Shown here in pieces: positions 25,537 to 35,077 of a DNA stretch of 64,000 nt; the stretch's first letter is position 1, and every line of letters starts with the position of its first letter. The stretch lies in assembly GCF_039645985.1 (NCBI RefSeq), contig NZ_CP147919.1, forward strand, positions 930,001 to 994,000. The letters run 5' to 3'. The notes under the pieces are model-generated. The model ran no database searches. It was not told the DNA's origin and saw only the letters and a list, made by a program, of their open reading frames with translations. The position numbers were made by a program, and so were the translations under genes. Origin of the DNA: Sulfurimonas sp. HSL3-7 (GTDB taxonomy: Bacteria > Campylobacterota > Campylobacteria > Campylobacterales > Sulfurimonadaceae).

Positions 25537-26784
25537 CTAACCACGTCCCATTGCCGCATCACCCAAGCTCCACATTGGCAAGAAAATACCGAGTGCAAGC
25601 ATCAATACCATCACCGCAATAATACCGAGCATAACCGGCTCAATCGCTTCTTGCAGACCGTCGATGATTTTGTCAAATCGCATTTTATAATACTCTGTTA
25701 CTTTGTTGAGCATCGTATCCAACTGGCCTGATTGCTCACCTGCCGAGACCATTGAAATGATCATGTTCTCAAAAAGCCCCGTTTCTTCAAGACCCTCGTG
25801 CAATGTACTTCCCTTTTCAACAGCACTACGCACTGTTGTCAATTTCTCTTTTAAGGGGAGGTTGTCCGTCATGTTAATGGCGGTATCAAGCGCTTCAGCT
25901 ATCGGAATACCGGAACGGACCAGTTCAGAGAAGACGAGAGTAAAACGGTTTAGTGTTGAATAGAGAATAATGCCTTTTATTAAATACAGTCTTAGAAGAA
26001 ATTGATGAAAACCGTATCGGAACTCTCTATTATGATCAATCATATATTTAATGACGAGATAGATAACAGCAATGCCTGCCAAAACAAAAAGACCGTACTG
26101 TGTCAGCATATCAGAAAGGAACATCAATATTCTTGTCGGCAATGGTAGATTCGCCCCAAGTTGTTCGAAGATCTCTTTAAACTGAGGCACAACAAAAGAA
26201 AGCAATATACTAAATGCAACAGCCATTGCGATCATAACATTACGCGGATAGGCCATTGCTTTTTTAAATTTGATTACATTCATACGGATCTCTTCGAGCA
26301 TGACAGCAAGTTTTGCCAATGCCTCAGCCATGTTACCTGTCTTTTCACCGAGCTCGACCATCGCTAGCGTAAGACCGCCAAGTTGAGATCGGAAGTTGTT
26401 CATTGCATTATAGAGACTTGAACCGGCATTAATATCCTCACCACATTTACTCAGAATCTCTTTGAGTGTTTTATCTTCTGTCGCATCGGCAAGTTCCGCA
26501 AGTGAATCATGTATCGAAATACCCGCATTGGTCATAACCGCCAACTGGTTGATCGCAGCTATTTGAGAATCCGGTTTGAGTTTTTTCTTTTTAGCATTTT
26601 TAAAAAGATTGGCTTTGAACTGGGCAAACTGCTCTTCCAGCGGGGGCGAACTCTCTTCAACTTTTACTAATATGCCCGGAAATTTGACCTTGGCCATATA
26701 GTGGGCTTCTTTCTTGCCTTCAGCGTATAATCTATGCTCTGTTTTTTTCCCGCGAGCAAGTACCGTTACTGTAAAATGTTTCAT
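25537..26784 (-). CDS. MshG/GspF/PilC-type inner-membrane platform protein
   Basis: 415-residue polytopic inner-membrane protein with two T2SSF domains (about 70-195 and 275-400), each ending in hydrophobic segments; NQLAVMTNAGISIHDSLAELA and SELVRSGIPIAEALDTA are the repeated signatures. It forms the platform that the extension ATPase turns to add pilin subunits. Equivalent to CtsF of Campylobacter. Last gene of the operon, overlapping the ATPase gene by 4 bases. Confidence 0.93.
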   Translation of the reverse strand: MKHFTVTVLARGKKTEHRLYAEGKKEAHYMAKVKFPGILVKVEESSPPLEEQFAQFKANLFKNAKKKKLKPDSQIAAINQLAVMTNAGISIHDSLAELADATEDKTLKEILSKCGEDINAGSSLYNAMNNFRSQLGGLTLAMVELGEKTGNMAEALAKLAVMLEEIRMNVIKFKKAMAYPRNVMIAMAVAFSILLSFVVPQFKEIFEQLGANLPLPTRILMFLSDMLTQYGLFVLAGIAVIYLVIKYMIDHNREFRYGFHQFLLRLYLIKGIILYSTLNRFTLVFSELVRSGIPIAEALDTAINMTDNLPLKEKLTTVRSAVEKGSTLHEGLEETGLFENMIISMVSAGEQSGQLDTMLNKVTEYYKMRFDKIIDGLQEAIEPVMLGIIAVMVLMLALGIFLPMWSLGDAAMGRG

Positions 26785-28523
26785 ACTTTTGCCACCCTTA
26801 AAATTTCTTCAATAGTCGTTGCGCCGCTAACAACTTTTTTCATACCATTCGCAAACATCTGTTCAAAACCCTCTTTGACCGCTTGCTCTGTTATCTCATC
26901 TTTCGAAGCACTGCGCGCAATCATACTTGACAGCTCTTCCGAAATAGGCAGAACCTCCGAGATCATCTCCCGGCCCATGTATCCGACGCCATTGCATTCT
27001 CGGCATCCTGCCCCCTTATAAAAAACAGTACCTTCCGGCAAGTATTTTTTATATTGTTCTGTGACCGAGAGTGGCAGATTATCTTCTGTCTTGCAGTAAG
27101 GACAAATCTTACGAATAAGACGCTGCGCTTGAACGGCAACCAGTGAACCGCTGATGAGGTAAGGCTCAATACCCATATCAACCATCCTCGGTATCGCACT
27201 GATGGCATCATTCGTATGCAGGGTAGAGATAACCAAGTGACCTGTCAAAGCTGCTTTAATAGCAATTTCAAGTGTCTCCTGGTCACGGATCTCCCCGATC
27301 ATGATCTTGTCCGGATCCTGACGCAGAATTGAACGTAGCGCATCGGCAAAACTGAGACCGACACTGGCCTGCACCTGGACCTGCTGAATTAGGTTCATCC
27401 GGTATTCCACAGGGTCTTCGACCGTAATAACTTTTTCTTCAACACTGCGCAGCTCGTTGAGCGCACCATAGAGGGTCGTTGTTTTACCGCTACCCGTCGG
27501 TCCGGTGACAAGGATAATACCATATGGCATTTTAAGGGCATTATGGAGTTTTTGATAACCAGCTTCATCCATACCGGCATCTTCAAGACGTATCATCGCT
27601 TTCTCTTTGTCGAGTACACGCATAACAATTGATTCACCGTACATAATCGGCAAGGTTGAGAAACGGAAATCGTATTCCCTATCACCTACTTGTGCTGAAA
27701 AACGGCCGTCTTGCGGCTTTCTTCTTTCCGCAATATCAAGATTTGCCAGGATCTTCAGACGTGATGCGAGTGGCGGATAGATATCTTTGTCAAAGATGAA
27801 TATCTCAGAGAGCTTGCCATCAACACGACCGCGCACGGTACAGTTGTTTTCGGTAGGTTCGATGTGGATATCACTCGCACGGTTTTTGATACAAGCTTTT
27901 AAGATGACATCTATAAGCTGTAAGATGGATGAGGCTTGTGCCTGATCTTTATTTTGGTCAGTCCCGATGGAGTTTAACTCATTCCGGATATTGACAACCA
28001 GTTCTTTAACACTGTCTTTCAGCTCAATTTTAAAGAGATAAGCCTGAATCTGTTTCTCTGTAGCGACTGCAATTTCGATCGGCTTGCGTGGAAAAAGGCG
28101 TTGAAGCGCCTCTTGTGCTTCGATATTCAGAGGGTCTGCAAATGCAACTGTAACCGATAGGTCATTTTCTTTGATGGGAATAGCATTAAAACGTTTTAAT
28201 TGTGATAACGGGATCCTGTCGGCCAGCCTGTAATCCATATCAATAGAGTCAAGATCAAGAAATTGTATCTCCATCACTTCACCGAGATACTGCATAACAG
28301 CTTGTTCATCCAAAAAATGATACTGCTTGATAATAGCAATCTCATAATGTCCCGAACGGACCTGTTCAACAATAAACCGTTTAACAAAGTTTGCAGAAAC
28401 GGCACCGACTTTAGTTAGTGTCTCGAGGAGGGTATCATCTTTTACCCCAACACGATGCAGACGTTCAATCTGCTCTTCTGAGATATGCCCTTGTGCCAAT
28501 AAGTCATGGGTAACTCTATCCAT
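26781..28523 (-). CDS. MshE/GspE/PilB-type secretion ATPase
   Basis: 580-residue cytoplasmic ATPase that powers pilus or pseudopilus extension. An N-terminal MshEN-type domain (about 40-150) is followed by the ATPase core: Walker A VTGPTGSGKTTTL, Asp box, Walker B with IMIGEIRDQET, His box LTGHLVISTLHTND, and a tetracysteine zinc site (CPYC ... CREC). Start ATG at 28523 has AGGA 7 bases upstream and avoids overlap with the preceding stop. Equivalent to CtsE. Coupled to the platform gene. Confidence 0.94.
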   Translation of the reverse strand: MDRVTHDLLAQGHISEEQIERLHRVGVKDDTLLETLTKVGAVSANFVKRFIVEQVRSGHYEIAIIKQYHFLDEQAVMQYLGEVMEIQFLDLDSIDMDYRLADRIPLSQLKRFNAIPIKENDLSVTVAFADPLNIEAQEALQRLFPRKPIEIAVATEKQIQAYLFKIELKDSVKELVVNIRNELNSIGTDQNKDQAQASSILQLIDVILKACIKNRASDIHIEPTENNCTVRGRVDGKLSEIFIFDKDIYPPLASRLKILANLDIAERRKPQDGRFSAQVGDREYDFRFSTLPIMYGESIVMRVLDKEKAMIRLEDAGMDEAGYQKLHNALKMPYGIILVTGPTGSGKTTTLYGALNELRSVEEKVITVEDPVEYRMNLIQQVQVQASVGLSFADALRSILRQDPDKIMIGEIRDQETLEIAIKAALTGHLVISTLHTNDAISAIPRMVDMGIEPYLISGSLVAVQAQRLIRKICPYCKTEDNLPLSVTEQYKKYLPEGTVFYKGAGCRECNGVGYMGREMISEVLPISEELSSMIARSASKDEITEQAVKEGFEQMFANGMKKVVSGATTIEEILRVAKV

Positions 28524-28531
28524 TTTGTATC

Positions 28532-29080
28532 CTACCAATAGATATGACGTTGTGTCATAATCTTATCATAATATTCTTCTATAACCATCTTAGGCGAAGG
28601 CGCGCTTTTTGTGACAAAAAGACGATAACTTTTTTTTGCATCATTAGGATCTCTATAGTTATAACGGCGTCTGTCTTTTGGACTGGTGTCTTTTGCATAA
28701 AGGTCAAAGACTGTTGAGAGAACATAATCTGTTGTCGGAAGTTTGACAGGCTTCAAGTCATATCGGTCGCTAAGTGAATACATAAGAAGCTTTTTCTGCA
28801 TCAGAATAACAGAAAAGTAAGCGGCATTGGCCCGCGCTTCCTTCGATTTTTTTAATGCAGTGATCGGCATAGAGAGTTTATCAAGGTGATCGGCGTTAAG
28901 ACAGGCAAAAGCATAGAGCGAGATAAACTCTTCATCATCTTTATACTCTTCGAGGATACCCTCACCCTTCTGACAAGCTTCTTCATATTTTGCATCTTGA
29001 TAGAGTTTGTAGGTCTCGAGTTTAGTATCTGCCTGTAAAAGCATAGAAGAGACAAAGAACAGAAATGTTAGTTTAATCAT
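28532..29080 (-). CDS. secreted protein of unknown function inside the MSHA-like operon
   Basis: 182 residues with an N-terminal signal peptide (MIKLTFLFFVSSMLLQA), so it should be periplasmic. The first half is a helical repeat-like segment (YQDAKYEEACQKGEGILEEYKDDEEFISLYAFACLNAD) with two cysteines; the second half is basic (KDRRRYNYRDPNDAKKSYRLFV). It overlaps the TPR gene upstream by 4 bases and ends 8 bases before the ATPase gene, so it is made with the machine. The classical Vibrio msh locus has no counterpart here that I know of; a gene at this place exists in the Campylobacter cts locus (recollection). Confidence 0.85.
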   Translation of the reverse strand: MIKLTFLFFVSSMLLQADTKLETYKLYQDAKYEEACQKGEGILEEYKDDEEFISLYAFACLNADHLDKLSMPITALKKSKEARANAAYFSVILMQKKLLMYSLSDRYDLKPVKLPTTDYVLSTVFDLYAKDTSPKDRRRYNYRDPNDAKKSYRLFVTKSAPSPKMVIEEYYDKIMTQRHIYW

Positions 29081-30012
29081 TTAAATTTTCCTAGTTGAAT
29101 TTCATTGAGTAATATTGACGCTTGAACGGAATATGTTTTTTGTAAATAGGCCTGTAATGTTGTGACCGCTTCCTCTTTTCTGCCTAATTTTACCAAGGAT
29201 CTACAAAATATAAGAATACTGTCTTCAATATCAGGGTTAAGATTATTTGTTTTCAAGGCATAGTTATAGGCTTCTTTATAATTGCCTTGCTCGTAATATT
29301 TTTTAGCTATAAAGAGGCTCAAAGCCGGTTTGTTCTGCTTTTCAAAACGTTTGATTACGCTGTTAAGCTCGTTATCGGATATCTGTTTGTGATCGATTTG
29401 AACGAAAAGTGTTTCAGGCTCTTTTTTGGCAACAATCGTATTCTCTTTAACAAGAACAACCTCTTTTACAGGTTCAACTACCTTGACGACCTCTTTTACA
29501 GGTTCTGCTACCTTGACGACTTTTTTCGCAGTAGGTTGCTTTTTCTGTACTTTGGCAACTTTGGTATGCTGCTTCGGCACGCTTGTTGTCTTTTTCTCTG
29601 TTTGTACGGCTGATTTTGGTGTGCTTTTGGCTTTAACAGATTGTTGTGTCTTTATTTCTTTAGCGGCAGAAGCAGTTTTAATGACTTCAGTGTTCGTATA
29701 GTTAATGACCTGATCTTCAATGTTGTACATAAAATTAAGAGAAGGTCTTAGAATGTTTTGTTCATCATCTATCGATAATCTCTTAGGAGGAACACTCTTG
29801 ATTGTAATATTCGTTTCTACAATAGGACGTGTTTTCTGTACTACAGACTGCTCGTTTTCGACGAGATTCTTTATCATGTCGGGATAGGCAATATAAAGAT
29901 AAGAAGTTGCAGTACCGACCGTTAATAATATTACAGCGGTTATGAGCAACGGCAATATTTTTTTTAAGCGGTAACGAAACCATCTTTTTTCAAGTTCTAA
30001 TACATCAAGCAT
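29077..30012 (-). CDS. MshN-like TPR inner-membrane protein
   Basis: 311 residues: short cytoplasmic N-terminus, one membrane segment (about 18-38; ILPLLITAVILLTVGTATSYLYIAY), a Lys/Val/Thr-rich periplasmic linker with tandem EPVKEVVKV units (about 165-190), and C-terminal TPR helices (about 215-311; ALSLFIAKKYYEQGNYKEAYNYALKTNNLNPD). Architecture and position between the MshM-type and MshE-type ATPases match MshN. It overlaps its upstream neighbour by 8 bases. Confidence 0.85.
   Translation of the reverse strand: MLDVLELEKRWFRYRLKKILPLLITAVILLTVGTATSYLYIAYPDMIKNLVENEQSVVQKTRPIVETNITIKSVPPKRLSIDDEQNILRPSLNFMYNIEDQVINYTNTEVIKTASAAKEIKTQQSVKAKSTPKSAVQTEKKTTSVPKQHTKVAKVQKKQPTAKKVVKVAEPVKEVVKVVEPVKEVVLVKENTIVAKKEPETLFVQIDHKQISDNELNSVIKRFEKQNKPALSLFIAKKYYEQGNYKEAYNYALKTNNLNPDIEDSILIFCRSLVKLGRKEEAVTTLQAYLQKTYSVQASILLNEIQLGKFK
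29455..29520 (-). repeat. tandem repeat inside the mshN-like gene
   Basis: Two near-identical units of about 30 bases (CCTCTTTTACAGGTTC...CTTGACGA on the plus strand) encode consecutive EPVKEVVKV segments in the periplasmic linker. The copy number could vary by slippage without breaking the frame only in whole units. Confidence 0.7.
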
Positions 30013-30817
30013 CGATAAACCCTATATGAATGGCAGCCATCTCTATCAGTTTTGTCGGCATGGATGTGAAGTTCAATTTAGAAGGTCTGTTCTCTTCGTA
30101 CCAACTGCAGATCTCAAAGAGTGAATAAAGTAACTTATTCGTGTCACGGTAGTTGCCATCGGTGAATTGGTGGATATGGCGTACACTCTTTTCAGTAAAC
30201 ATATTGGCTATATCAAAATAGTTGGCCCGTAAGAGTTTCTTCTGGATATAAATAGTCAACTCAGACGGCGTGGCATTTTGTAACTCTTGGCTCTCCCAAA
30301 TACGTGTTTTGAAATGTTCCTTGGCTATTAGGTCTTCTTTCTCAGTTTTGTGTAATGCAAAAATGAATTTGACCTTTCTGGAGTCTGATATTAATCGTAT
30401 CTTCTCCATGAGTGATTCCGAATAAAGTTGTGCCTCATCAAGAATTACAATGGGTGTCGTCTCCATTGCATAATAATTCGAAATCTCAATAAACTGAGTG
30501 AAATTAAGAGGAGATGGTGAATTGAATTGAAAAACCTCATAGGCCATGACCTTGAAAAATTCGCTTTCGTCAATAATGGGTGTCTGGATATAGGTAACTT
30601 TTTGTTGTGGAGAAAGTTCTTTGTAGAGCTTATTAAGCATCATACTTTTCCCTGTTCCCGGTTTTCCAAAAACAAGAATCATTTTCAGAGGCTTTTTTAC
30701 AGCCTCTTTAAGCCCATGATAGACAGCGGCATTGCGGTCAAGCTGGACATAGTCTTTTGCATCGACAATGTCCATAAAAACGTCTTTACAATTGCGGAAG
30801 GTTTTAGAGCTGCTCAT
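30005..30817 (-). CDS. MshM/ExeA-like AAA ATPase
   Basis: 270-residue cytoplasmic ATPase: Walker A FGKPGTGKSMML (about 45-56), Walker B TPIVILDEAQLYSE, and an ExeA/MshM-type C-terminal lid (GNYRDTNKLLYSLFEI). MshM and CtsP are its likely equivalents. The ATG at 30817 has AGAGG just upstream and overlaps the secretin stop by 14 bases; an earlier in-frame ATG at 30862 lies deeper in the secretin gene and is less likely. Confidence 0.87.
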   Translation of the reverse strand: MSSSKTFRNCKDVFMDIVDAKDYVQLDRNAAVYHGLKEAVKKPLKMILVFGKPGTGKSMMLNKLYKELSPQQKVTYIQTPIIDESEFFKVMAYEVFQFNSPSPLNFTQFIEISNYYAMETTPIVILDEAQLYSESLMEKIRLISDSRKVKFIFALHKTEKEDLIAKEHFKTRIWESQELQNATPSELTIYIQKKLLRANYFDIANMFTEKSVRHIHQFTDGNYRDTNKLLYSLFEICSWYEENRPSKLNFTSMPTKLIEMAAIHIGFIDA

Positions 30818-32465
30818 CTGCCTCTTTACTCTCAGGTGCTTTTTCTGCATCTGGTGTGACATCGCTATCTTCGCTAAATGTTGCTTTTAAACCAGCTTCT
30901 TCTTTTGTCATTGAAGTGTATCCCAAATCTTGCAATTCCAAGGTATTGCCTTGTGGTTTGACGATATGCGGTTCGATGACAATAACGAGCTCTTCGACCT
31001 GGCGGATTTTTTCTTCATATTTAAAGAAATAGCCAAGACCAGGAATGTCGCCGAGCAATGGAACTTTATTTGTTTGGAAGTTCTCACGTGAACCGATCAG
31101 CCCACCCAAAATAATACGATTACCATCTTTGACTGTTACGACAGTTGAGAGTTGTCGACGGTCAAGGTCAGGCGGCATGGTGCGATTTTCTTGCTCTGCT
31201 GAAGCACTTGAAACCTGAACCCGGGTTTGACTCAGTGATGGGTTGACTTTGATTGTAATAGAACCATCTTCAGCGATCTCTGGGGTGATATCCAAAAGAA
31301 CACCGGCGAAAACAGAGTTGACGATATTGTTTTGTGTTGTGGCGACGACACCGCCACCGGCACCTTGTTGGTTCTGAGACTGTTCAATCATATAAAAGTA
31401 TTCTGTACCTACAGTAATAAGGGCAGGTTGGTTGTTAAGGGTGAGTACTTTCGGATTAGAAATCGAGCGTACTTCACCTTGCTCTTTTAAGAATTTAATG
31501 ACTTCTGTAATCGAACCTCCGCCGGATATTTGAACCAGAGTTGCTGCTCTGTTTGCGAGAGTGTCAATACTCTCAAGATTCCCGACCGGAGTGTATGTTC
31601 CGCTCCATTTACCGTTTGTACTTACTGAATCAACAGCGAGTTGAAAATTTTGAAGCGCATAGAGCTGTGACCAGTCGATACCGGTAGATGACTTGTCATC
31701 AAAAAGTACAGCAAGCATATTTACATCGATAAGGACTTGTCTTTGAACCTTGTTCTGCAGCTTTTTAAGATATTCATCTATACGCTGTTGCTGACGGCCT
31801 GTAGCAGAGATAGTAACCAGCCCGGCATTTCTGTTAATGATAGGTGCCTCAGCCTGATAAGCATCTTCAGGGCGGTTAAGAACGCGTTGCAGTTCAAGAT
31901 CCAATTCTTCCCAGAATTTTACCTCGTCCGACGATTCAATTGAAATTCCCGATTTATTTGCACCGGCACTGCTATTGGCACTCATTGGATCCGGAGTTGA
32001 GCCTGAAGATCCAGTCATACCGGATGTGCTTCCCATCAAGTTGCCTTGACCGATTTGAGAAGAACTTGAACTTAGCATGACATCCGTGGAGCCTTGGCTT
32101 TTACGTGACGAAAGTATGTAGTCGATATTGTAGGTTTTTGTTTTAAGATAGGAAATTCTCAAAATCCCATTCTCTATACTGAAGTTCAGATTGTTTTCTG
32201 TTAATAAAATCCCAAAAACTTCGTCAATAGTAAGGTTTTTGATATGGGTTTTATTTAATTTCTTGTCCATCATCTTTTCAGTTTCTTTGTCTGCAACAAC
32301 AAGACTGTACTCACAAGCCGTTGTCAGTTGATCGACATACTCACCAATCGTCGTCCCTTTTGCAGATGAAATGCTAAAAAGCTCATAGGTACAGTCTGCT
32401 TGCATCGCTGTCGCCAAGACAACAGAGGCTGCGAACGAAATCAGTTTTTTATTTAAGTTTTTCAT
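30804..32465 (-). CDS. MshL/PilQ-type outer-membrane secretin
   Basis: 553 residues with a signal peptide (about 1-23), an STN/secretin N0-type domain (about 35-110), a Ser/Gly-rich variable loop (about 125-180), N-domain segments (about 190-260) and the secretin core (about 300-520; signatures VRSISNPKVLTLNNQPALITVG, NRIILGGLIGS, KVPLLGDIPGLGYFFK). It forms the gated outer-membrane channel for the pilus or incoming DNA. Equivalent to CtsD. The tail after residue 525 is acidic. Confidence 0.94.
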   Translation of the reverse strand: MKNLNKKLISFAASVVLATAMQADCTYELFSISSAKGTTIGEYVDQLTTACEYSLVVADKETEKMMDKKLNKTHIKNLTIDEVFGILLTENNLNFSIENGILRISYLKTKTYNIDYILSSRKSQGSTDVMLSSSSSQIGQGNLMGSTSGMTGSSGSTPDPMSANSSAGANKSGISIESSDEVKFWEELDLELQRVLNRPEDAYQAEAPIINRNAGLVTISATGRQQQRIDEYLKKLQNKVQRQVLIDVNMLAVLFDDKSSTGIDWSQLYALQNFQLAVDSVSTNGKWSGTYTPVGNLESIDTLANRAATLVQISGGGSITEVIKFLKEQGEVRSISNPKVLTLNNQPALITVGTEYFYMIEQSQNQQGAGGGVVATTQNNIVNSVFAGVLLDITPEIAEDGSITIKVNPSLSQTRVQVSSASAEQENRTMPPDLDRRQLSTVVTVKDGNRIILGGLIGSRENFQTNKVPLLGDIPGLGYFFKYEEKIRQVEELVIVIEPHIVKPQGNTLELQDLGYTSMTKEEAGLKATFSEDSDVTPDAEKAPESKEADEQL

Positions 32466-32493
32466 TTTTGATCTTCCTTTTATCCAGATTGCT

Positions 32494-32913
32494 CTAGTTT
32501 ACTTTGAATTGAATCTTGTCGTTTTTTTGATTCAGATAGAGTCTCAGCTCTTTGGTTTTGCTTTTAAGCAGTGCTTCAGTAGCCGACACATTGACAATAG
32601 TGTATTGACGTACTCTATCACCTTCTTTGTACCATTTACCATTGATCTTTACATTTTTATTAATGCAGGACTCAAGTTTAAGCGGCGGTAATTTGACCTC
32701 TCGTTTAACAGCATAGGTGGTTTTAACGCCATTTTTACTCTTGTGTAACAAAATAAAAGGACTCTTGACGCGTAAAACATCGACACTGCTTACTCCTTTT
32801 CGAGGAGGTTTTATCTCGATGATCTGCTTGTTAATAGTCTCATGGTCCGCAGTGCTCGCTACCAAGGAAATCGGTATTAAGGGCAGTAGTGATAATAAAA
32901 GTAATTTTTTCAT
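32494..32913 (-). CDS. MshK/PilP-like periplasmic protein
   Basis: 139 residues from the ATG at 32913, which shares one base with the preceding stop (TAATG). A signal peptide (about 1-20) is followed by a Pro/Lys stretch and a small beta domain with NGKWYKEGDRVRQYTIVNVSATEALL and LRLYLN, the pattern of MshK/PilP-type domains that link the inner-membrane complex to the secretin. Possibly equivalent to CtsR. Assignment rests on position plus this weak domain match. Confidence 0.75.
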   Translation of the reverse strand: MKKLLLLSLLPLIPISLVASTADHETINKQIIEIKPPRKGVSSVDVLRVKSPFILLHKSKNGVKTTYAVKREVKLPPLKLESCINKNVKINGKWYKEGDRVRQYTIVNVSATEALLKSKTKELRLYLNQKNDKIQFKVN

Positions 32914-33545
32914 TAATATGTGATCCCCCATACTGATAAATTAAGATCTAAATTCAATTTCGTTGTCGCTTCAAGATTAAGATCGTGAAGATCAACTACC
33001 AGCTTGCTCTTCTCTATGGCGTTAATGAATCTGATCATATCTTGGTATTGGCCTATAGCTTGTATATCAATATTCAGGACATGACCGAATTTTGTTTTAT
33101 CCTCAGCCAATCTATTGGCAAAGTAATTGAGTTTAACTTTATGTTTTTTTGCATTTTCTGCAATAGAATCTATAAATTCACCCCAAATCTCTTCGTCATA
33201 AAAAAGTTCAGGGATTTTTTCGATCTCTGTCTTGATGTACGCATTTTCACTTTTCAATGAAACCAGTTCATTGTTGAGCTGAGTGATCTCTTGATCCAAA
33301 CGAACAATCTCACTCTCCGGGTGCATCAACAAATACTGTCTATCTGTATCTATTTTCGCCTGTACGGCCTGGGAAGCTGCTAACGCATCTTTATAGCCCT
33401 GTTCTGAGCTTTCCCAAAAGACAAGATAGGAGAATGTGACAAGGACGACAAAAACCATCGCATAGATCATTTTAATGTCTTTGTCACTTTTCTGAGCAAA
33501 ACTTTGATCTATGTCATAAAGATACTTCTCTAATATAGCACTCAT
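32913..33545 (-). CDS. MshJ/PilO-like inner-membrane protein
   Basis: 210 residues: one membrane segment (about 26-43; IYAMVFVVLVTFSYLVFW), a coiled-coil stretch (about 60-105) and a C-terminal alpha/beta domain (about 115-210) as in PilO-type proteins that form the alignment complex with PilN. Its ATG overlaps the stop of the upstream gene by 4 bases. Confidence 0.82.
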   Translation of the reverse strand: MSAILEKYLYDIDQSFAQKSDKDIKMIYAMVFVVLVTFSYLVFWESSEQGYKDALAASQAVQAKIDTDRQYLLMHPESEIVRLDQEITQLNNELVSLKSENAYIKTEIEKIPELFYDEEIWGEFIDSIAENAKKHKVKLNYFANRLAEDKTKFGHVLNIDIQAIGQYQDMIRFINAIEKSKLVVDLHDLNLEATTKLNLDLNLSVWGITY

Positions 33546-35077
33546 TTTATCACCGCCTTCATCTCACTTAGGTAATGTTTTTTCTCTTCATCATAATGGA
33601 TCTCTTCGAGCATGAAGTGAAAACGAGACGTTTTCTTGGCTGTTAAATACTCCAACAGACGTGTGATATCTTTATCTTTTTTAGAGATCATATAAAAAGT
33701 GAAGCCTTTGAAATTCTCAGTTTCATGATATGCGAGCTTCTGTAATTTTACCTGATATTTATTCAGGTCTGCAGCAAATTCTGTGGTCAGTTTTGCTTTC
33801 ATAGGATAGTTGACTTTCACTTCATGAATCTTGGACAAGGTATTCATTTGACGATCTAATTCAGTCTGTTCCGCCTCAACCAGTTTGGTAACGGCATTTT
33901 TTTCTACAGTTTTGAGATTGATCGTAGCTTCACGTGTTGTTTTAATATTATGCACTTCAGCATATTCACTATCCAAAATTGCTTTGTTGAGTTCTTCTGC
34001 GAAGGTCATGCTCCAAAAGACTACCGGGTAGGCAAAGGCAACAAGCAGGGCCACTCCGGCTACTGCAATCAGTTTACCGCTGTTTCGCTGTAAAAATTTC
34101 GGCGGTCTCGGATAAAGGGAGAAGTTGCATTCGTACCGCTCTTCACTTTCGGTCATGGTGTAAAGGTGTACCAATTGATGTATCTGGTCCACATACCGGC
34201 CATTCGTATCAAACCCGTAGTCAAAGTCAAATGGTTTTGAAATTAAGCCTAGGTAGGTTTGAGAATATTCATCAAGACCTGCAATTGAACCGATTTGCGA
34301 ACCGATATAGACTTGGTCGATAGACTCCAGCTCAAATGCCCTCTTGGCATAGGTTAGAACATCATTGATATGTAGAAAGAGTTCGCCGAACAATTTGATC
34401 AGATCGCGTTGATATTCTCTGTTGTCAGAGCTGAGACCGGCACCTGAAAGAAGTTCAATAAAGAGCGGATAGGCGATCTGCTCACCATAAAGTTCACAAA
34501 ACCGTTCATGCATCATCTTAATTGAATATTTCAATGATTTTGTATAGACAAACTCTCGATCATTGTAGATGGTAAAAAAGGCGTCATTGTCTTGAAAATA
34601 GATATAACAGTGGACGCCGACTTCGGTTACGATTTCGCGTTGGTACAGTCCTTTAAGCAGAAGCGGTACCGGTACGATCTGATCAATGTATTTGATCTTA
34701 TCAACGATGTTTTCAAACGTTTCATCCATTGTGAGTGGATCAACAATGAAGACATGAAAATAACGTTCTTTGTCATCTAATTGTTGGCCTGATTCGATAA
34801 ATTGAATATTATATTCAACAGCCATATCAAGTGCGAGCTCTTCATAGATCTTGCTCTCTATGGCAAAAGACAAATCCTCGTCCGGGATGTTTTTACTTAC
34901 GCCAATTAATGCAGTGAGAAAATCGTTGGTATTTAAAAAAGACATCGCATATTGGGTTTTAGAGAAGTTTATGGAGGTAACTTGTTCTAATTTTCCGGAT
35001 GAACCAATATAATATGTCTCTTTGTAAGGATTTAGAGAAAGGACACTGGTAAATGTCGGTTGTTGCGTTTTATTCAT
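33542..35077 (-). CDS. MshI-like protein (PilM-type + PilN-type fusion)
   Basis: 511 residues: a cytoplasmic N-terminal region (about 1-330) with the actin/PilM-like pattern, a single membrane segment (about 340-357; LIAVAGVALLVAFAYPVVFW), a coiled coil (about 365-420) and a periplasmic PilN-like domain (about 420-511). This joins in one chain what PilM and PilN do separately, as in MshI. It is the first gene of the nine-gene operon; an AGGA lies 9 bases before the ATG and the promoter must be in the 380-base gap upstream. Confidence 0.8.
   Translation of the reverse strand: MNKTQQPTFTSVLSLNPYKETYYIGSSGKLEQVTSINFSKTQYAMSFLNTNDFLTALIGVSKNIPDEDLSFAIESKIYEELALDMAVEYNIQFIESGQQLDDKERYFHVFIVDPLTMDETFENIVDKIKYIDQIVPVPLLLKGLYQREIVTEVGVHCYIYFQDNDAFFTIYNDREFVYTKSLKYSIKMMHERFCELYGEQIAYPLFIELLSGAGLSSDNREYQRDLIKLFGELFLHINDVLTYAKRAFELESIDQVYIGSQIGSIAGLDEYSQTYLGLISKPFDFDYGFDTNGRYVDQIHQLVHLYTMTESEERYECNFSLYPRPPKFLQRNSGKLIAVAGVALLVAFAYPVVFWSMTFAEELNKAILDSEYAEVHNIKTTREATINLKTVEKNAVTKLVEAEQTELDRQMNTLSKIHEVKVNYPMKAKLTTEFAADLNKYQVKLQKLAYHETENFKGFTFYMISKKDKDITRLLEYLTAKKTSRFHFMLEEIHYDEEKKHYLSEMKAVIK

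Follow-up and report, generated by a model that had tools for sequence, protein, structure and literature searches.

The nine genes at 25537-35077 of the window, the whole 64-kb stretch of DNA analysed, probably belong to a retractile pilus of the MSH class encoded at several loci, in which the machine comes from this operon, the fibre comes from three remote loci and the task is DNA uptake; the Cts apparatus of Campylobacter would be a reduced relative of it. The operon would supply the envelope-spanning assembly machine of a type IV pilus, and the fibre would be built from pilins flanking priA near comEC, from two pilins linked to arnT and ATP-citrate-lyase genes, and from a set of minor pilins with a tip protein. 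We infer that in this organism a single PilD cleaves all these pilins, which then enter this machine, that PilT ATPases pull the fibre back, and that DNA caught at the surface is drawn in through the secretin MshL and reaches ComEA and ComEC. Surface contact is a likely second job. Cts would be a relative from which I, J, X, the tip protein and PilT have disappeared. Two points make DNA uptake the best-supported use: Cts, to our knowledge the only relative with this gene order to have been studied experimentally, performs it, and one of the pilin loci is bound to priA and comEC. The sequence evidence consists of the parts of the machine, the loci of the pilins, a conserved gene order and a gene-by-gene matching with Cts.

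All nine reading frames are open on the minus strand and follow one another in the transcription order I-J-K-L-M-N-X-E-G. Coordinates and family profiles both agree with the sequence-only reading, which had described a nine-gene MSH-type assembly operon in this order. Neighbouring genes overlap by 4 to 59 bases, the sole spacing being 28 bases between K and L. An Era-like gene lies 378 bases from the start of I, and a convergent UvrD-like helicase gene, already described as the next gene, lies 29 bases past the end of G (both neighbours are named from reading and not from profiles). The mshI-type protein I (511 amino acids, 33542..35077) contains a PilM-like domain, a transmembrane or coiled helix and a C-terminal PilN-like beta domain. 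Pfam and TIGR profile searches gave no real family match for I; its AlphaFold model (pLDDT 85.5) matches PilM in the PDB with probability 1.00; past the PilM part, a helix spans 333-440 and a beta domain makes up the C-terminus, so that the predicted structure supports the fusion of PilM and PilN proposed earlier. The mshJ-type protein J (210 amino acids, 32913..33545) is PilO-like (PF04350, 32.6 bits, cut-off 22), and the mshK-type protein K (145 amino acids, 32494..32931), counterpart of CtsR, weakly matches T2SSB (E 0.0038). L (553 amino acids, 30804..32465) is the MshL secretin and counterpart of CtsD, with 276.7 bits against TIGR02519 (cut-off 250.2) and Pfam Secretin over cut-off. The mshM-type AAA ATPase M (285 amino acids, 30005..30862), counterpart of CtsP, has PF13401 (AAA_22) over cut-off and may in fact start within the stretch shared with L. 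N (311 amino acids, 29077..30012) is an mshN-type TPR protein (ANAPC3/TPR over cut-off) corresponding to CtsX. The mshE assembly ATPase E (585 amino acids, 26781..28538; PF00437, T2SSE, and PF05157, MshEN, over cut-off) and the mshG inner-membrane platform G (415 amino acids, 25537..26784; PF00482, T2SSF, over cut-off) correspond to CtsE and CtsF, respectively.

The remaining gene, X (182 amino acids, 28532..29080), has a putative signal peptide, and its model (pLDDT 92.6) consists of TPR-like helices with a small C-terminal sheet. A Pfam search of X gave no match and a PDB structure search nothing at E 0.001 or better. Profile searches found X in the core type only, and neither in Cts nor in the pilin-bearing MSH clusters examined; it appears as a conserved, putative periplasmic TPR-like protein confined to the core MSH operon.

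A profile of prepilins, made from 78 N-terminal segments, found no pilin anywhere in the 64-kb window (best E 6.1), in keeping with the earlier statement that the operon contains none. The same profile matched the 11 prepilin reading frames in the host's pilin loci at E 1.7e-16 to 0.042, a result that serves as a working check rather than an independent test since most of the 11 were training segments. The order I-J-K-L-M-N-X-E-G recurs in 80 named related loci to the extent that their contigs cover it, X being unmatched in two, and is therefore not due to chance; these loci derive mostly from metagenome-assembled genomes of the Sulfurimonas group, and 44 are longer than 20 kb. By pattern and by profile, none of the 80 has a pilin near the operon, the best match (E 0.046) being a J protein. 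The absence of pilins, which the first reading had taken as an oddity, is thus the rule in the family.

The Vibrio MSHA locus has the gene order I-J-K-L-M-N-E-G. The operon shares with the MSHA/MSH class this order, an MshL equivalog over cut-off, an MshE with the MshEN domain, MshG and MshM; it differs in the lack of pilins and of a c-di-GMP motif in MshE and in the extra gene X between N and E. Domain content (T2SSE with MshEN, T2SSF, secretin and AAA_22) places mshE, mshG, mshL and mshM in the operon, the four genes that are mandatory in the published MSH model, where mshA is a possible loner (PMC6668835). Candidates for the major pilin are three prepilins of 128-136 amino acids around priA, recognized by the N_methyl profile. 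Measured against a single locus that includes the pilins, the system falls outside: the window is free of pilins, which lie at three unlinked places. It falls outside the type II secretion system (T2SS) as well, L scoring 151.6 bits against GspD TIGR02517 (cut-off 351.35), and outside the type IVa pilus, with 118.7 bits against PilQ TIGR02515 (cut-off 284.35) and 517.7 against PilB TIGR02538 (cut-off 675.65). The T2SS has a secretin, ATPase and platform homologous to those of the operon; however, MshL is far below the GspD cut-off, and the T2SS of the host forms a cluster apart, whose own GspG scores 138 bits (cut-off 88.85). Denise et al. (2019) reported MSH systems in Epsilonproteobacteria and described them as 'almost exclusively' single-locus, a statement that the present case would qualify; as far as its text is available, the main text of that paper contains neither 'Cts' nor 'Campylobacter' (PMC6668835). 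In Thiovulum, another member of the Campylobacterota, short filaments have been read as type IV pili, and genes resembling T4aP, T4bP and MSH are described (PMC9938260).

The host genome (G000) is a single-contig chromosome of 2.87 Mb containing the window, and 12 N_methyl matches were obtained on it at E <= 10. They confirm the expectation that pilins would be coded elsewhere and put them at three unlinked places (the gene names uvrB, ispG, dnaB, arnT, acl, bamD, recG and MshD/O/P, and the labels TIP and PIL1-5, are assigned by reading and not by profile). At the first place, prepilins at 441.7, 442.4 and 444.9 kb flank priA and are followed by ispG-like and dnaB-like genes and comEC. At the second, prepilins at 889.7 and 890.9 kb follow arnT-like and ATP-citrate-lyase-like genes; these two (L028:5648-7469, 889.6-891.5 kb) are related to each other, most relatives have one, and the pair is probably a local duplication. 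The third place, with prepilins at 2276.2 and 2276.8 kb, is an operon of a putative tip protein of 1458 amino acids, two prepilins and an MshP-like protein, with a recG-like gene adjacent. The T2SS cluster at 2604-2614 kb accounts for four further matches, and a weak one (E 0.43) lies at 91.9 kb. Beside the T2SS cluster, at about 2615.9 kb (L026:16937-17302), a reading frame encoding a short repeated peptide corresponds to a DNA tandem repeat.

The partner genes that the sequence-only reading had suggested looking for are all present: the host has one prepilin peptidase PilD, three PilT over cut-off, ComEC and a 78-amino-acid ComEA-like protein, together with DprA. ComEC, ComEA and DprA occur also in organisms not known as transformable, a point against the DNA-uptake reading. 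The contrary case named in that reading, a second complete pilus operon using its own pilins, is absent, for the only other secretin is that of the T2SS cluster, which has its own ATPase, platform and pseudopilins. The pilin directly before priA in the host (442.4 kb), in the position of Cj0683 of Campylobacter jejuni, has a pI of 8.6 and is the sole basic one among eight tested (the others 4.3-5.5). A basic pI was considered as a mark of priA-linked pilins and abandoned, as only 34 such pilins in 57 genomes have a pI of 7 or more, a mere trend. The GRxR motif is a sign of the DNA-binding pilin FimT; such a tail is absent from the arnT-linked pilins of the 10 relatives printed and from PIL4 and PIL5.

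Among 60 loci from 15 genomes, the operon and the uvrB-pilin-priA, arnT-pilin and bamD/tip/minor-pilin/recG places are found again, incompletely in some genomes. All 13 priA loci of this set have a pilin before priA, although that of G053 is not immediately adjacent. The count was extended to 121 genomes, of which 100 entered it: G089 has no priA match, the 13 above were counted separately, and G073, G075, G088, G104 and G115 (group g7, of which ten other genomes were counted) as well as G027 and G003 (priA at a contig edge) were left out. Within about 3 kb before priA, a pilin was found in 56 of the 61 genomes outside family f2 and in none of the 39 within it (14 of genus g17 and 25 others). 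A first prepilin pattern (53 of 61) had missed G066, G008, G030 and G106 and was replaced by the profile; G106, with E 0.031, falls outside the 56. MshL (TIGR02519) matches are present in 105 of the 121 genomes, 93 of them over cut-off, and some of the weaker ones are T2SS-type secretins. The 16 genomes without a match are the 14 of g17, G066 and G089; an assembly gap may explain the lack of a secretin in G066, which has a pilin before priA and a T2SSE-type match. Prepilins were found in 22 of 26 chosen genomes, the exceptions being the four g17 genomes of the set. In g17, which we guess to be Helicobacter-like, all 14 genomes lack an MshL match and the four tested have neither prepilin nor PilT, which counts in favour of the proposed reading.

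Some of these counts weigh against the proposed reading. The 25 f2 genomes outside g17 have an MshL match and no pilin before priA (for example L226, L230 and L256), so that the link between pilin and priA is not universal. The priA-linked pilins of distant genera are also of low sequence likeness; those of the Campylobacter-like genomes show 31-42% local identity, due in part to the shared N-terminal helix.

The relation to Cts was traced with profiles of the core genes in three operons of group g13, which is taken as Campylobacter-like from operon content and protein lengths (L of 472 and M of 202 amino acids in G069, the lengths tabulated for CtsD and CtsP in PMC8308473). L, N, E and G were matched in all three operons, M and K in two each; I and X were matched in none, and J only at E 0.2 in one. 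In two Cts operons the K profile picked out the gene preceding the secretin (E 5e-15 and 3e-12), the M profile matched Cts genes at E 7e-23 and 8e-24, and the N profile matched the gene between CtsP and CtsE at E 3e-26 in G069. The order given for the Cts operon is ctsRDPXEF, with ctsG, ctsT and ctsW named separately (PMC10893306). Taken with these matches, it equates R with K, D with L, P with M, X with N, E with E and F with G, so that the comparison of gene order suggested earlier is possible gene by gene and K-L-M-N-E-G appear, on sequence grounds, as the counterparts of ctsRDPXEF in the same order.

The two systems also share a pilin before priA (G025, G046 and G069 of g13) and another after an arnT-like gene (G025 and G046); short pilins lie near a bamD-like gene in G025 and G046. 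They differ in that the window type keeps I, J and X, the last between N and E, none of which was found in the three Campylobacter-like operons, and in that the host has PilT and a putative tip protein, whereas G025, G046 and G069 have no PilT over cut-off and the loci fetched from them show no tip protein. In G069 and G046 (L166 and L172), a further pilin of 176 and 171 amino acids, respectively, directly follows a tsaD-like gene; CtsG is listed with 171 amino acids (PMC8308473), which matches the length of this g13 pilin. Cj0683 of C. jejuni, whose gene belongs to an operon preceding priA, begins with a pilin-type N-terminus; efficient DNA uptake requires it, and it makes two-hybrid contact with CtsE. 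The authors found no homologue outside Campylobacter, according to the parts of the paper available (PMC10046745). This last statement would be qualified by the positional counterparts described here, whose low identity is partly that of the N-terminal helix. The operon is probably a full-sized relative of the Campylobacter DNA-uptake machine. If so, that machine originates from an MSH pilus rather than from a T2SS, and its likely fibre proteins are indicated in free-living relatives. A literature search found no paper joining MshL with CtsD, although subscription papers lay mostly outside it and the link is possibly in print; among the matches listed, none named Campylobacter jejuni, MshE and CtsE together, and a search on MSHA and type IV pili in the Campylobacterota yielded nothing relevant.

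Five genomes, G010 (L162), G036 (L156), G053 (L154), G061 (L158) and G074 (L160), carry a second MSH operon with pilins at both ends. These clusters share the class of machine and the components I-L-M-N-E-G with the window type but form a separate clade, have terminal pilins and the c-di-GMP motif in MshE, and lack X. In a concatenated tree of E, L and G (20 rows, no outgroup), they make up one clade (100/100), the window is placed with the core copies of its own family, and a topology in which Cts joins the pilin-bearing clade is rejected (p-AU 0.0014; 0.0039 with G012 added). The single-gene trees of E, L and G were set aside because each placed the Cts rows differently, which is attributed to long branches and a distant outgroup; the E tree alone put Cts beside the pilin-bearing clade, without a starred branch. 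The long branches of the Cts rows and this disagreement count against Cts as a reduced relative. Within the pilin-bearing clade, G010 (f1) stands beside G053 (f8), in conflict with the tree of the core copies, and such conflict suggests horizontal transfer.

A tandem c-di-GMP motif has been described in MshE (PMC5013675), and a somewhat loosened form of this pattern was used in the search. The motif is present in MshE of all five pilin-bearing clusters, two of them having two copies by the stricter pattern, and was found in none of 12 core and core-like MshE, among them that of the window, in none of 3 from Cts and in none of 58 named core MshE. The switch point through which Vibrio MSHA is controlled is therefore missing from the window type. 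Machines of the MSH class that have the motif and those that do not offer a natural pair for studying what directs a type IV pilus towards adhesion or towards DNA uptake. The balance leans slightly towards a wider view, in which the Campylobacterota share an ancestral MSH-class DNA-uptake pilus, uncoupled from c-di-GMP and with its genes distributed over four conserved places. Cts would be a stripped form of it without PilM/N/O and PilT, and Cj0683 one case of a pilin that occupies this position in most of the phylum, one Helicobacter-like family excepted. Some lineages would have gained the pilin-bearing cluster with the motif in addition, probably by horizontal transfer, so that adhesion became separate from uptake.

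Vibrio MSHA is an attachment pilus. A similar pilus for surface attachment or twitching, with scattered genes and with DNA uptake absent or incidental, is an unlikely alternative for the operon, to which the function of the Vibrio system, the three PilT over cut-off and the minor-pilin operon with its secreted protein of 1458 amino acids lend weight. PilT over cut-off is present in 16 of 27 genomes and absent in four g13, two g12 and four g17 genomes and in G089. Near an intact PilT of G028 at 1098511, a PilT/T2SSE-type fragment (G028:C1:1103048-1103815) with three stop codons looks decayed. The tip protein is matched outside the pilin-bearing cluster in 10 of 15 genomes (G000 replacing G010, whose copy sits in its pilin-bearing cluster), namely G000, G009, G036, G053, G056, G058, G061, G074, G098 and G116, all with PilT. 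It was not seen in the loci fetched from G012, G028, G025, G046 and G069; as G028 and G012 have PilT, the two do not always occur together. A Pfam search gave no family for the putative tip protein; those seen among its relatives were each confined to a single member of 7. PilT and the large-tip operon point to a retractile surface pilus that may serve both uptake and attachment, where the sequence-only reading had suggested uptake in place of attachment. Against attachment as the main role stand the MshE without the c-di-GMP motif, in contrast to all five pilin-bearing clusters, the service of the orthologous Cts in transformation, and the binding of a pilin locus to priA and comEC, and a retractile pilus for DNA uptake is preferred.

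A secretion device borrowing the pseudopilins of the T2SS is very improbable. The host does have a T2SS with pseudopilins, and one prepilin peptidase serves all; that T2SS, however, is equipped with its own secretin, ATPase and platform, and G009, which has no T2SS secretin, keeps the same operon (at about 679-689 kb) and decides for rejection. In G009 there is one secretin match, two of three PilT/T2SSE-type matches are PilT over cut-off, leaving one assembly ATPase, and no other such machine was found. Its prepilins number exactly five, at 246.9, 247.6, 1382.8, 1689.6 and 1690.2 kb, all at the three places, so that a single machine and its five prepilins support the reading of a multi-locus DNA-uptake pilus. 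G116 resembles G009, with seven prepilin matches at E <= 1, one of which (721.2 kb, below cut-off) lies outside the loci examined. An unused relic without pilins, for which the lack of an adjoining pilin might speak, is scarcely credible and was rejected, because all nine frames are open, the ATPase, secretin and platform families are intact and the gene order is kept in the loci of 80 relatives.
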